In this document: positions 2,479 through 7,555 of the stretch, piece by piece
Numbering within the stretch: the first letter of the stretch is position 1
Layout of the letters: each line of letters opens with the position of its first letter
Origin: Pseudomonadota bacterium
GTDB lineage: Bacteria; Myxococcota; Polyangia; Polyangiales; Polyangiaceae
DNA length: 7,555 nt
Assembly: GCA_023419055.1 (NCBI GenBank)
Contig: JAEZYO010000051.1
Location: 1 to 7,555 of the forward strand
Reading direction: 5' to 3'
The notes under the pieces: generated by a model
The model's database searches: none
What the model was told of the DNA's origin: nothing
Seen by the model: the letters and a program-made list of their open reading frames with translations, nothing else
Translations under genes and position numbers: made by a program

Positions 2479-3522
2479 CTAGGAACGAGGGTCGCCGATG
2501 CGTCCCATGAAGAGCACCGCGTCGAGCTGCTTGTCACGGATCAGGAACAAGAACGGGCGGTCCACGTGAAAGAGGACGCTGGGGCGAGCGCTCTTGGTCC
2601 TCATGGCCACGCCGGTAGCGGCGGCCGCGACCGTCCCCGCTTCGTCCACGCGGACGCGCGCGCGGTGGTAGACGTCGTCGATCCAGAGATCGGAAGGTCC
2701 CCCCGCCATCCCCGAGAAGTCCGCCTGGCTCGAGAATGCGAGCGGCATACCCAAGCGCGAGAGCACGGGCTTCAACTTCGCGGGGCCGTAGTCGACGCTG
2801 AAGCGCGGCAGCATGACACGCAGCTCGGCTGGTTCGAGCGCTCGAAATAGGTTCGTCAGCGTCGCGGCCGTGAGCGACTCTTCGAGCTTCGGCAACCCTG
2901 CTGCTTCGCGCGGCAGTAGGAACACCATGCTGAAGCGATCCCCCGTGTAGTCGAGCTCGAGCGCACGAACGCCGACGTCCGGGAGCTCCGCGTGTCGCGC
3001 CGGAACGACGCCCTGCATGGTCGGTACCTGCACGCTCTGGCCGCTGGCCAGCGAGAACTGAGCGGGCTGAGTCAGCTTCTCTTCGAACTTCGTGACCCAG
3101 GTGCCCTTGAAGTAGGCCGCGTTGACCAGCACCACGCGGGTGTTCGAGTCGATGCTTCCCGAAGGCAAGAGCTCCTTGATCTCTCGGTGCGTGGCCTGCT
3201 CCACCCACGCGTTGACGCGCTGCTCTGCCTGCCGCGAGGCTCCGAAGTCGATGGATTCGGAGCCCGCAGCGTAGTTTTCTTGCAACAGGGTGAGGAACTC
3301 TCGTCGCAGCGGGTACGAGCGCTGCACGAAAATTCGATTCGCGAGGGAGAGCGTGGGGCCGCCTTTCTCGCTCTTCCAACCCGCCGTGGTCTTGCGAAAC
3401 TCGGCGTGCGCGTTCTGTTGCGGGACGTCCACTTGGAGTGCGGTCGCCATTTGAGCAGACGTGGCACCGCGGCTTCCCGCCCAGGTCATCGCGAGCGCCT
3501 GCTGAACGCTTGCGGCGGACAA
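2479..3522 (-). CDS. serpin (serine protease inhibitor) domain, body of a frameshifted lipoprotein-serpin
   Basis: This is a clear serpin. Counting from the TTG at 3522: ALAMTWAGSRGATSAQM (9-25) is the helix B/C region; NAAYFKGTW (134-142) is the classic strand 3A motif; MVFLLP is at 199-204; FLFLIRD and VLFMGRIGDP are at the C-terminus. The reactive-centre hinge is of inhibitory type: E294 (P17), G296 (P15), T297 (P14), four Ala (P12-P9) and T303 (P8). Counting as in alpha-1-antitrypsin puts P1 at Lys310 and P1' at Ser311 (codons 2590-2595), predicting inhibition of a trypsin-like protease. The segment lacks helix A and an export signal. Both lie in the next frame upstream (3548-3817), so TTG 3522 is unlikely to be the native start. 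The body frame is open only back to 3561. Functional status depends on whether the frame break is real. Confidence 0.9.
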   Translation of the reverse strand: MSAASVQQALAMTWAGSRGATSAQMATALQVDVPQQNAHAEFRKTTAGWKSEKGGPTLSLANRIFVQRSYPLRREFLTLLQENYAAGSESIDFGASRQAEQRVNAWVEQATHREIKELLPSGSIDSNTRVVLVNAAYFKGTWVTKFEEKLTQPAQFSLASGQSVQVPTMQGVVPARHAELPDVGVRALELDYTGDRFSMVFLLPREAAGLPKLEESLTAATLTNLFRALEPAELRVMLPRFSVDYGPAKLKPVLSRLGMPLAFSSQADFSGMAGGPSDLWIDDVYHRARVRVDEAGTVAAAATGVAMRTKSARPSVLFHVDRPFLFLIRDKQLDAVLFMGRIGDPRS

Positions 3523-3899: not shown

Positions 3900-5627
3900 T
3901 TACGGCGCCGCCCAGTTGCCGCTCGCGCAGTTCGCCTGCGCGGCCGCCGCGTTGGGGAAGAGAATGGACTGGTAGTAGTACATCTTCACCTCGGTCGTGG
4001 TCCCAGCGAACATCGTGCAGACGCCGAGGAGCTTGGTGACCCCGCAGTGTGCCGTGGAGTACGTACCCGGACAGGTGCTCTGCGCCACCGCCTGAGTGTA
4101 ACTCGAGCCGACGTAGTCGTTGCACACGGAGGGCTGGCCGCCGACGACGGAGAGCGTGCAGCTGCCCGCGGTGGGCGCACACGTCAAAAAGGTATAGGTG
4201 CCGGTCCAGGTGCCCCAGACGCCGTCGTTGCAGGTGCGAGTCTGTTCTTCCTGCTCACACGTGCTCCCGTTCGGTACCGAAGCGGCCTTGTACCTGATGC
4301 GCGACTCGGTGCCGCCGTGAGCGACACCGTCGCAGCTCGCGGGTTCGGCGACCGTGCAGGATTCGTTCTTGTAAGTGCCGTTCCAGGCTCCCCAGACCCC
4401 GTTGTCGCAAGTGCGCGTCTGCGTCTCGCTCACGCAAGCGCTGCCGAACGGTACGTTCGCGGATTGATAGCGGGTGCGAGACTCGACGTCTCCGTGGGCG
4501 GTGCCATCACAGCTGGCCGGAGGATCGACGGTGCAGCTTTCGAATTCGAAGGTGCCGGTCCAGTCGCTCAAGGTACCGTTGGTGCAGGTCTGGCTCTGAA
4601 CCTCCTTCTGGCAGGTTTGCCCGTAGGGAACCGTTGCCGTTTCGTACCGCTCTCGCGTCAGCGTCGTACCGTGTGGCGCTTCGGCGCAATCCACCGGCGG
4701 CGTGACCTCACAGCTTTCATAGGTGTAGGAGCCGGTCCACTCGGTCCAGACCCCGTCATTGCAAATCTGGCTCTGCGACTCCTCCTGGCATGCCTCGTTC
4801 CAGGCCACTGCTCCCGCGAGGTAGCGGGTCCGCGTCCGCACCTCGCCGTGAGCTCCGCCTTCGCAATCGGCGGCTGGGCCTACCGTGCAGGCGCCGAAGG
4901 TGTACGTGCCGGACCATTCACCGAGCGCGCCGTTTTCGCAAAGCGCGGTCTGCGTCTCCTCGGTGCAGGTCTCGCCGTACTCGACGGTCGCGGTGAGGTA
5001 GCGCACCCGCTCGGCGCTCTCACCATGCGGAGTGTCGCCGCAAGCGGCCGCAGGGAGCACGCTGCACGCTTCTTCGACGAAGGTTCCGCTCCAAGCGCCC
5101 CACTCCGAATCGCTGCAGGTACGGGTCTGTTCCTCCGAAGTGCACGTGTCGCCATACGCAACGGTCGCCGCTTCGTAACGGACTCGGCTTTCCGACTCCC
5201 CGCTCTCGGTCTCTCCGCAGTTTCCTTCCGGGCCCGTGACGGTACAGCTCTTGGCCTCGAACGAGCCACTCCAAGTGCTCCAGCCGTCCTCCGTGCAGGC
5301 CCGAGTTTGCTCTTCGGAGACGCACGCTTCGGGCGCGCTCACGTCTTCCTCCGAGTAGCGTGTGCGGCTCTGCTCCTCTCCGAGCTTGGCCCCGTCGCAA
5401 GTGGGGCTCGGAGCGCCGCCACCTTCACCTCCATCGTCGCTCCCGCCGCCGGAGGCACCCGTGGCGCTTCCGCCGCTGCCGCCGGCCATGTCTGTCTCAC
5501 CGCCAAAGCCCGCGGTTCCTGCGCCGCCGCCAGGCGACTGCGACGCGGATTCTCCACAGGCCAGCGCGAGGAGCGCGCCACCGAACGATAGACCCCAGAA
5601 CGAGCTGATTTTCATCGAATACCCCAT
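3900..5627 (-). CDS. lipoprotein with seven thrombospondin-1-like Cys/Trp repeats
   Basis: The start is taken as the ATG at 5627, with GGAG at 5640-5637 nine bases upstream. The ATG at 5615 is also plausible (MKISSFWGL), preceded by gggg. The signal has the lipobox LALAC, followed by a Gly/Ser-rich linker. Seven tandem repeats of 58-60 residues follow (4161-5399). Each has four Cys, an RxRY motif, GxxC, an ExQxxxC run and WSG/WTG. This order of Trp, Cys, RxR and Cys resembles thrombospondin type 1 repeats, which often bind glycans or other proteins. The match is by pattern only. The last 86 residues form a separate Cys-rich domain (SVCNDY, STCPG, AHCG, GVCTM, YYYQS, ANCASGNW) of a type recurrent in secreted myxobacterial proteins. 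The product is probably displayed on the outer membrane, stabilised by disulfides. It ends 82 bp before the serpin leader on the same strand, so co-transcription is possible. Function unknown; adhesion or a structural role is inferred. Confidence 0.8.
   Translation of the reverse strand: MGYSMKISSFWGLSFGGALLALACGESASQSPGGGAGTAGFGGETDMAGGSGGSATGASGGGSDDGGEGGGAPSPTCDGAKLGEEQSRTRYSEEDVSAPEACVSEEQTRACTEDGWSTWSGSFEAKSCTVTGPEGNCGETESGESESRVRYEAATVAYGDTCTSEEQTRTCSDSEWGAWSGTFVEEACSVLPAAACGDTPHGESAERVRYLTATVEYGETCTEETQTALCENGALGEWSGTYTFGACTVGPAADCEGGAHGEVRTRTRYLAGAVAWNEACQEESQSQICNDGVWTEWTGSYTYESCEVTPPVDCAEAPHGTTLTRERYETATVPYGQTCQKEVQSQTCTNGTLSDWTGTFEFESCTVDPPASCDGTAHGDVESRTRYQSANVPFGSACVSETQTRTCDNGVWGAWNGTYKNESCTVAEPASCDGVAHGGTESRIRYKAASVPNGSTCEQEEQTRTCNDGVWGTWTGTYTFLTCAPTAGSCTLSVVGGQPSVCNDYVGSSYTQAVAQSTCPGTYSTAHCGVTKLLGVCTMFAGTTTEVKMYYYQSILFPNAAAAQANCASGNWAAP
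4161..5399 (-). repeat. seven tandem coding repeats with a 177-bp period
   Basis: Approximate units on the minus strand are 5399-5220 (60 residues), 5219-5043, 5042-4866, 4865-4689, 4688-4512, 4511-4335 (59 residues each) and 4334-4161 (58 residues). Each unit starts at a Cys followed by a Gly/Ala/Asp/Glu-rich turn. Conserved positions in the unit are C1, G7, R12, R14, Y15, V20, C26, E29, Q31, C35, W43, G45 and C52. The DNA copies have diverged well beyond identity, so the array is old and unlikely to be a hot recombining repeat. Confidence 0.9.
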
Positions 5628-5658
5628 AGCTTTGCACTCCAACCGAAAACGGGCGCGG

Positions 5659-5887: not shown

Positions 5888-6586
5888 TTGGTCGCACCCG
5901 AACGCCCTCTCGGCCGAAAGGCTTACTTCAAGATCGCGCACCTCCCGGGCTCGCGGACAGGCTCCTCCGATCGCACTACGCCACCGGAGCTCGCCGAGCG
6001 CTGCCTCGTCGCCGCGCGTCCCGGTGAAGAGGTGCTCGTGCAGGAGAAGCTCGACGGGTCTTGCGTCGCCGTTGCGCGCCTGGGGGACGCCATGCTCGCG
6101 CTCGGCCGAGAAGGCACCCTCGCGGCATGCTCGCAGAACCCCGGGCGACGGATGTTCGCGGCCTGGCTCGAGCAGCGTGCGGGCTCGTTTCGCGAGCTGC
6201 TCCGCCCCGGCGAGTGGCTCGTGGGCGAATGGCTCGCGCTCGCGCATTCGACCCGCTACGCGCTCCGCCACGATCCATTCGTCGTCTTCGACGCCTTTCA
6301 TGAAGGGCGACAGTGGACGACCGACGAGCTCGATGCGCGTGTGAAGGGCGCGTTGCCCCGTCCGGCGCTTCTGCACCGCGGCGGCGCGCTCGGCATCGCG
6401 GCCATGCTGGAACGGCTGGGGCCAGGCGGCCACGGCGCGGTGGAGCCGCCGGAAGGCGCCGTCTGGCGCATCGAGCGCAGAGGGCGCGTCGTCGGCATGG
6501 CCAAATACGTGCGCGGTGACAAAGTGGACGGCTCGCTCCTCCCCGAGAATTCCGGACGCGAAGCGGTTTGGAACTTCAAGTTGTGA
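5888..6586 (+). CDS. RNA ligase family protein (compact nucleotidyltransferase domain)
   Basis: The 232-residue protein carries the ordered motifs of covalent nucleotidyltransferases. Motif I is EKLDGS with the predicted AMP-accepting Lys54. Motif III is in GEWLALAHSTRY (E114), IIIa is FVVFDAF (131-137), IV is EGAVWR (189-194) and V is AKYVR (205-209). This fits the ATP-dependent RNA ligase family (PF09414 type), which seals 5'-phosphate and 3'-OH RNA ends through enzyme-AMP and RNA-AMP intermediates. No extra N- or C-terminal domain is present; the C-terminus (KVDGSLLPENSG, VWNF) looks family-typical. The start is weak: TTG 5888 has GGAG only 2 bases upstream, and CTG 5873 is the alternative. 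An in-frame ATG at 5852 is followed directly by TGA. The N-terminal family region (YFKIAHLPGSR) is intact from TTG 5888. The stop overlaps the next start by 4 bp, implying translational coupling. RNA repair or tRNA/rRNA sealing is the likely role; the substrate is unknown. Confidence 0.85.
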   Translation: MVAPERPLGRKAYFKIAHLPGSRTGSSDRTTPPELAERCLVAARPGEEVLVQEKLDGSCVAVARLGDAMLALGREGTLAACSQNPGRRMFAAWLEQRAGSFRELLRPGEWLVGEWLALAHSTRYALRHDPFVVFDAFHEGRQWTTDELDARVKGALPRPALLHRGGALGIAAMLERLGPGGHGAVEPPEGAVWRIERRGRVVGMAKYVRGDKVDGSLLPENSGREAVWNFKL

Positions 6587-7555
6587 AGACGGTCACCTTC
6601 ATCACGGGTAACGGCTGGAAGCACGAAGAGGCGAAGCGGCTCTTGTCGGGGCTCGACGTCGAGCGCGCGCGCCTCACGCTCGCCAAAGGAGACTCCGGGG
6701 AGTTGGAAGCAATGGCTCGAGCTCGCGTGCTCGACGGCTTCGAGCAGCTGCGAGCACCTTGCTTCGTCGAAAATACCGGCATGTTCTTGGAGTCGAACCG
6801 GGCGCTCGCCGGTGCGCAGGTGAAGGAGCTCCTGCGAGAGCTCGGCCCCGCCGCCTTCACCGCGCGTTTCGGCGGGCTCCACGGCGTGACCCGCGTGGTC
6901 GTGGCGTATACGGAAGATGGCCGGAGCGTGAAGCTCTTCGTGGGCGAAAGCTCGGGGACCGTAGCCGACGCGCCGCGCGGCGAGCAGGGCTATGGTTGGG
7001 ATAGCGTTTGGATCCCGGACGGCTTCGAGCGCACTCTCGCGGAGCTCAGCGGCTCGAAATACGTCGTCAACATGAGGCTCGTGCCCTTTCTCGAGCTCGC
7101 CGCCGAGCTCAGGGGTACGGGCTTCGACGGCGTTTTCGAGTCGCACGTTACCGTCGCCTCTTGCGACGAGGTGGAGTTCGCGAAGACGTGCGACGCGCTC
7201 GGCGTGAAGGCGCTTTTCATCTCGTTGCCGCGCGGCCGTGTTGCGCGCCAACCGATGACGGGTGCGCACCATCGCGGCCCGTTGCATGAAGTGATGCTCG
7301 TCGTGCACGAGCTGGCTCGCGATCTGGCGCGAGCCGGCTTCGAGGTCATCCGCACCAAGGTGGAGGCCGTCGGTGCACATCGGGATCTGCCGCTGACCGA
7401 CGAGGTCGCTGCGCGGGCACCGCGCACCAACTACTTCGAACACCACGCCAAGGTCGTCCTGCCTTCTCTCGAAAGTGAGGCCGAAGTCGCGCGCGCCTTC
7501 GTCGCGCTCGGAGCGTACCTGTCACGCGGTGCACCGCGCGCAGACGGGGTCGAGG
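6583..7555 (+). CDS. ITPase/HAM1-like domain fused to an unknown C-terminal domain, 3'-partial
   Basis: GTG 6583 overlaps the ligase stop (GTGA) and gives 324 residues to the window edge with no stop. Residues 1-175 follow the inosine-triphosphate pyrophosphatase fold, closest in pattern to human ITPA. They contain TFITGNxxKxEE (5-16), FVENTGM (61-67), GYGWDSVWIPDGFERTLAEL (136-155) and a final helix around FLELAAEL. Known family members hydrolyse ITP, dITP and XTP to monophosphates. The usual ED-T/S-G/C-L active-site Asp is Asn64 here, and the SHR motif is replaced by NMR (163-165), so activity may be changed or lost. Residues about 183-324 form a second domain with FESHVTV (185-191), RQPMTGAHH (222-230), AGFEVIRTKVE (251-261) and YFEHHAK (284-290). 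I do not recognise this domain. Coupling to the RNA ligase suggests a joint role in RNA end or nucleotide repair; this is inferred. Confidence 0.7.
   Translation, partial: MKTVTFITGNGWKHEEAKRLLSGLDVERARLTLAKGDSGELEAMARARVLDGFEQLRAPCFVENTGMFLESNRALAGAQVKELLRELGPAAFTARFGGLHGVTRVVVAYTEDGRSVKLFVGESSGTVADAPRGEQGYGWDSVWIPDGFERTLAELSGSKYVVNMRLVPFLELAAELRGTGFDGVFESHVTVASCDEVEFAKTCDALGVKALFISLPRGRVARQPMTGAHHRGPLHEVMLVVHELARDLARAGFEVIRTKVEAVGAHRDLPLTDEVAARAPRTNYFEHHAKVVLPSLESEAEVARAFVALGAYLSRGAPRADGVE

Follow-up and report, generated by a model that had tools for sequence, protein, structure and literature searches.

Genes at the locus

The window, meaning the whole stretch of 7,555 nucleotides that was analysed, ends with an RNA ligase gene followed by a gene for a HAM1-X protein, in which a HAM1-type domain is fused to a C-terminal domain named X here (Table 1). 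The full-length HAM1-X protein has 380 aa in a database copy identical to the window (P0001), and hence about 56 residues and the stop codon lie beyond position 7555. Comparison of related loci indicates that the visible pair is part of a conserved operon of RNA ligase, HAM1-X and an AbiEii-type nucleotidyltransferase (NTase). The closest named relative of each protein is from Sorangium, with 87% identity for the ligase and 83% for HAM1-X, which suggests a Sorangium-like myxobacterium as the probable origin of the window.

Table 1. Features of the RNA ligase and HAM1-X genes in the window
Feature	Position	Strand	Remarks
RNA ligase	5888-6586	+	TTG start, 232 aa; Pfam RNA_ligase PF09414, E 5.6e-16, residues 47-208
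GTGA overlap, ligase stop/HAM1-X start	6583-6586	+	TGA 6584-6586, GTG 6583-6585
HAM1-X fusion	6583-7555	+	GTG start; open at window end, 324 of 380 aa visible
HAM1 domain, KomB-like	6592-7053	+	residues 4-157; Pfam Ham1p_like PF01725, E 3.8e-15
Asn64 codon	6772-6774	+	human ITPA has Asp here (aligned with ITPA and KomB)
X domain, first part	7123-7555	+	own profiles; continues beyond window end
FESHVTV motif of X (E186, H188, T190)	7135-7155	+	invariant in 22 aligned fusions

The RNA_ligase family is the sole Pfam match of the window ligase, which is thus not an RtcB. Motifs I (EKLDGS), III, IIIa, IV and V are retained by the 20 ligase homologues aligned, and the motif I lysine K54 is invariant in them. 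The enzyme is intact and is predicted to join RNA (3'-OH to 5'-phosphate). An earlier note on this DNA had stated that the ligase stop codon and the next start codon share GTGA, which the sequence bears out; its further statement that the two proteins are ‘made together’ is what the gene overlap would suggest. Among the 15 fusion loci possessing the ligase, nine show an overlap of 4 bp or 1 bp between the two genes, and these overlaps, together with the invariant K54 of the 20 aligned homologues, imply that the observation is more than chance. In one locus (L011, 6654-9952; similarly in G123 and G137) an extra gene stands between ligase and HAM1-X, and a second copy of the final ~36 codons of the ligase remains beside HAM1. 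The ligase family also occurs in 20 viral-contig loci (L037-L056), with no X, NTase or endonuclease dU (Endo dU) in the flanks examined, and a Rhizobium plasmid carries a family member alone.

The HAM1 domain as a probable sensor

The claim of a HAM1/ITPA-fold protein stands as far as the fold is concerned, since the Pfam match is accompanied by a HAM1 fold in the predicted structure of the fusion (pLDDT 93.7); the ITPase aspartate, however, is missing in 57 of 57 fusions. Position 64 is Asn in 48 of them, Ser in five, Thr in two, and Leu and Ala in one each. The Asp of the E-D-T motif has a catalytic role in HAM1/ITPase proteins. Compared with canonical ITPases (RdgB, human ITPA), which have the HAM1 fold in common with the window protein, HAM1-X shows Asn in place of Asp, NMR in place of the SHR motif, and the C-terminal X. 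GYGWD and the nucleotide-pocket residues are largely kept. The best solved match to the domain by sequence is KomB (E 3e-18), the dITP sensor of the Kongming system. Thus, the label ‘ITPase-like’ is probably misleading, and the HAM1 domain looks like a sensor resembling KomB. Several fusion-bearing genomes have, apart from the fusion, another HAM1 match that is of the usual type. Two HAM1 matches lie side by side in Saccharibacteria genomes (L028, L036).

The X domain

That the HAM1 part is fused to an unrecognised domain was confirmed, as the C-terminal 200 residues have neither a Pfam match (searched with the 324 window residues) nor an NCBIfam match. In the predicted structures (pLDDT 87.1 for X alone), X, for which Pfam has no model, consists of two beta-alpha-beta-beta-alpha-beta lobes in a tandem ferredoxin-like arrangement. 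FExH sits in the first strand of both lobes, and one lobe can be aligned to the other (hhalign E 3e-6, probability 88%), so that X looks like an internal duplication. The ExHxT motif is retained in seven diverse bacterial and phage X sequences aligned. Searches gave no clear solved relative, the LigT-type (2H phosphoesterase) fold was not among the fold matches listed, and X did not match the single phage protein with a 2'-5' RNA ligase annotation that was compared with it.

The third gene and the inheritance of the operon

The earlier note had proposed to look beyond position 7555 for a third gene such as a kinase, phosphatase or nuclease. A third gene was indeed found in relatives, where it encodes neither a kinase nor a phosphatase but an NTase; in the window it would lie past the end. 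It stands 3' of the fusion in 16 of 17 fusion loci, immediately next to it in 15 and at a distance of 4.2 kb in L006, and is missing in L017, a locus cut by the contig end. Pfam AbiEii (PF08843) matched 5 of the 6 NTases given (E 7e-6 to 5e-26; L005 was not matched), the family shows a DxD motif, and the NTase profile matches AbiGII (9hlo, E 4e-25). For the clade of the window, the support for an NTase comes from a single database protein on a 20,915-base contig (P0065), whose alignment covers 27% and has 86% identity to the window; there, the sequence after X gives a match to the NTase profile (E 1.5e-12), with the frame broken.

The 17 fusion loci were obtained by scanning genome contigs with an alignment of the fusion; the 36 related loci that this gave also include 8 of X alone and 11 of HAM1 alone. 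All 17 are in records titled myxobacteria or deltaproteobacteria, and 15 have the ligase upstream on the same strand (exceptions L008 and L017). The NTase is next to X in 7 of the 8 loci of X alone; the exception, L035, holds part of X only. In addition, 195 genomes of one group were scored with 9 to 14 candidates per genome, and a strong X (E 1e-80 or better) was present in 29 and a strong ligase (E 1e-100 or better) in 28. All 28 strong-ligase genomes fall among the 29 with strong X (Fisher p 5e-33, kinship ignored), and by printed coordinates 27 of the 28 ligases lie on the same strand less than 3 kb from X, the two being on different contigs in G078. A second group of 377 sampled genomes, with five candidates scored in each, gave three fusions and seven copies of X alone among the matches listed; the NTase is within 1.5 kb in seven of these ten loci and the ligase in three, with one of them, L180, combining ligase, X and NTase but no HAM1. 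The ten include two repeats, as L177 comes from the genome of L002 and L178 is the locus of L015 by coordinates. The conserved adjacency on which the earlier note had made its proposal depend is therefore seen in 15 of 17 fusion loci, in the 27 of 28 ligases within 3 kb, and also on a Deinococcus plasmid.

The pairwise distances of ligase, HAM1, X and NTase correlate with r of 0.90-0.95 over 24-30 loci (0.54 or less in 999 permutations). The 30 loci were selected from those collected here and contain two or more repeats (L062 = L009, L073 = L012). The four parts are inherited together. The surroundings of the operon are mostly not shared between loci: among L001-L016, any shared flanking homologue was found in 13 of 114 locus pairs outside Myxococcus/Pyxidicoccus and in 6 of 6 inside.

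A nuclease family was found as well, although upstream of the ligase and not as the third gene. In 6 of 17 fusion loci (L001, L004, L005, L006, L014, L016), the gene immediately before that of the ligase encodes Endo dU, and Pfam Endo_dU matched all three upstream genes given (E 6e-50 or better). Endo dU is present in 66 of the 195 genomes, and 28 of the 29 strong-X genomes are among these (Fisher p 1e-14, kinship ignored); most of these copies are unlinked to the operon. In a genome without strong X (G156), Endo dU is followed by a short ligase remnant (L162, 2126-2972).

Other combinations in bacteria and phages

The Deinococcus plasmid carries a ligase divergent from X and NTase genes that overlap by 4 bp. 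Six further loci (L081-L085, L180) similarly combine ligase, X and NTase without HAM1. X and NTase with no ligase nearby were found in a Saprospiraceae genome, in Actinomycetota and on an Embleya plasmid. The same pair occurs in six of seven further X loci, these six being five remoter copies in myxobacteria and one in another actinobacterium; the NTase is absent from the seventh locus, L159. Searches of the DNA beside the divergent X copies L159, L183, L187 and L191 found no NTase. Outside, X is rare (2 of 296 Actinomycetota and 1 of 296 Bacteroidota genomes, in samples that include the centre genomes and in which at most 10 candidates were scored per genome).

X also matches 19-20 of 50,697 phage records, several of which are duplicate records of one phage; ExHxT, RxKxE and YFExH are kept in the aligned phage sequences. 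Several phage copies lie near RNA genes. For example, phage Arash has an RtcB gene ~400 bases downstream of X, and in phiM7 X lies 0.9 kb behind an annotated RNA ligase and 3.7 kb ahead of a tRNA nucleotidyltransferase. The RNA ligase gene near phage X is annotated as RNA ligase 1, and in two viral contigs a seryl-tRNA synthetase (SerRS) gene follows X within ~0.5 kb. This proximity is suggestive only, since large phages carry many RNA genes, and other phage X loci are without such a neighbour (e.g., L166 of Aeromonas, with an ATPase and a tRNA gene, and L175, with a cytidine deaminase). No AbiEii gene is annotated alongside X in phage loci L166-L170. In six large-phage proteins (L167, L168, L171, L173, L174, L176) X follows a MazG-like domain (phrog_1247); Pfam MazG scored under its cut-off in five of the six and gave no match in the other. 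A cytidine/dCMP deaminase gene was observed just upstream of the phage X gene in L175 (9164-10597).

Comparison with known systems

The operon can be compared with AbiE/MenAT-type toxin-antitoxin modules, with which it has in common an NTase of the family with the DxD motif and, upstream and overlapping, the gene of a partner. Both members have PADLOC names: the label AbiEii was given to 5 of 5 NTases and AbiEi to 3 of 3 X submitted, and PDLC02277 ‘AbiEi’ matched the full HAM1-X protein with E 6.8e-48. The labelling of the pair is presumably by neighbourhood. The AbiEi antitoxin has a winged-helix domain, whereas X has two ferredoxin-like lobes and no Pfam AbiEi match (window protein and relatives given to Pfam), its PADLOC label nonetheless being AbiEi. 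The operon further differs by the fusion of X to HAM1 and the added RNA ligase. Kongming (KomA deaminase, KomB HAM1-like, KomC SIR2) likewise has a HAM1 protein with the ITPase Asp replaced; here, however, the domain is fused to X, and KomA and KomC were not seen among 10 neighbouring proteins from four loci given to Pfam. The RNA repair operons T4 Pnkp/Rnl, Pnkp/Hen1 and RtcA/RtcB also combine an RNA ligase with RNA-end enzymes, whereas the operon here holds an AbiEii-type NTase and HAM1-X; no kinase-phosphatase or cyclase was recognised with the ligase among the minority of flanking genes identified. The phage MazG-X proteins resemble HAM1-X in placing X behind a nucleotide pyrophosphatase-type domain, but have a MazG-like domain instead of HAM1, and no ligase of the operon's family was seen alongside.

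Possible function of the operon

The earlier note had suggested an undescribed RNA-repair unit. This is partly supported: the conserved adjacency and the third gene agree with it, and searches of open-licence papers found no description of the operon, but the X-AbiEii pair is already filed as AbiEi/AbiEii in PADLOC-DB. The families of the parts are known; we know of no precedent for their combination or for the sensor-like HAM1-X protein. RNA repair is one of two live readings, the other being a toxin-antitoxin module.

The reading that we favour, while giving it slightly less than an even chance, is a nucleotide-gated operon for RNA-end repair or quality control. The HAM1 part would no longer hydrolyse but bind a deaminated nucleotide such as (d)ITP and switch the module on; the NTase would add nucleotides to the 3'-OH ends of damaged RNA, probably tRNA; and the ligase would seal 3'-OH to 5'-phosphate ends, with no end-healing partner recognised in the operon. 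X, whose two lobes contain conserved His, Lys, Arg and Glu residues, would hold or process the RNA end and couple the sensor to the NTase. The gene order, the co-inheritance, the unshared flanks and the Deinococcus plasmid are consistent with this reading, as are the loss of the ITPase Asp, the KomB match, the phage context of X and the extension of tRNA 3' ends by AbiEii-family MenT toxins (PMC10435456). Counted against it are the PADLOC filing as AbiE, the frequent X-NTase pairs without ligase, and the ligase-X-NTase loci without HAM1, which suggest that the sensor is dispensable. Moreover, four aligned single-domain HAM1 relatives keep the Asp yet lack His at the SHR position, and an unaligned one (P0071) shows ENT. 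Archaeal Endo dU cut neither RNA nor dI (PMC11585767).

The main rival is an AbiE-type toxin-antitoxin or abortive infection module with added sensor and ligase, which we consider possible though doubtful. The NTase toxin would block tRNA with X as antitoxin, a phage-induced nucleotide would release the toxin through the KomB-like HAM1 domain, and the ligase would protect or later restore RNA. The PADLOC labels, the overlap of the X and NTase genes, the AbiGII match, the KomB-like sensor domain, and the occurrence of X-NTase on its own in Actinomycetota and Bacteroidota point to such a module. The tandem ferredoxin-like model of X without an AbiEi match argues against it, and so do the phage copies lacking an annotated adjoining AbiEii gene and a locus position that is shared within Myxococcus/Pyxidicoccus, unlike that of a mobile defence island.

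A housekeeping unit, in which an active ITPase cleans the nucleotide pool and the ligase repairs RNA, would agree with the HAM1 fold and the retained GYGWD and pocket residues; it is very improbable in view of the Asp missing from all 57 fusions and the separate HAM1 match of the usual type in several of these genomes. Repair of uracil-containing DNA or RNA:DNA hybrids, with Endo dU nicking and NTase and ligase filling and sealing, draws on the Endo dU genes directly upstream of the ligase and on the published cleavage of dU-DNA by this enzyme (PMC11585767). It seems highly unlikely as well, as most loci lack Endo dU or have it unlinked, the ligase belongs to an RNA ligase family, and the AbiEii relatives act on tRNA (PMC10435456).

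A more extended form of the favoured reading, an RNA repair or immune operon gated by nucleotides, is rather unlikely in all its parts. A HAM1 clean-up enzyme would have turned into a (d)ITP sensor, as in Kongming, controlling through X an NTase that rebuilds or blocks RNA 3' ends together with a sealing ligase; X would be a new RNA-end domain common to bacteria and large phages, more than once fused to nucleotide-pyrophosphatase folds. If this is right, a response of RNA repair or shutdown outside Kongming would be controlled by deaminated nucleotides, and the AbiEii-family ‘toxins’ could include enzymes of RNA repair.

Other genes of the window

Elsewhere, the window encodes a glycosyl hydrolase family 30 protein that is open at the window start (3-1499, +), a 580-aa protein of repeated Cys- and Trp-containing units without a Pfam match (3900-5642, -), and a bacterial serpin, a serine protease inhibitor (2479-3522, -; Pfam Serpin, E 9.3e-99).
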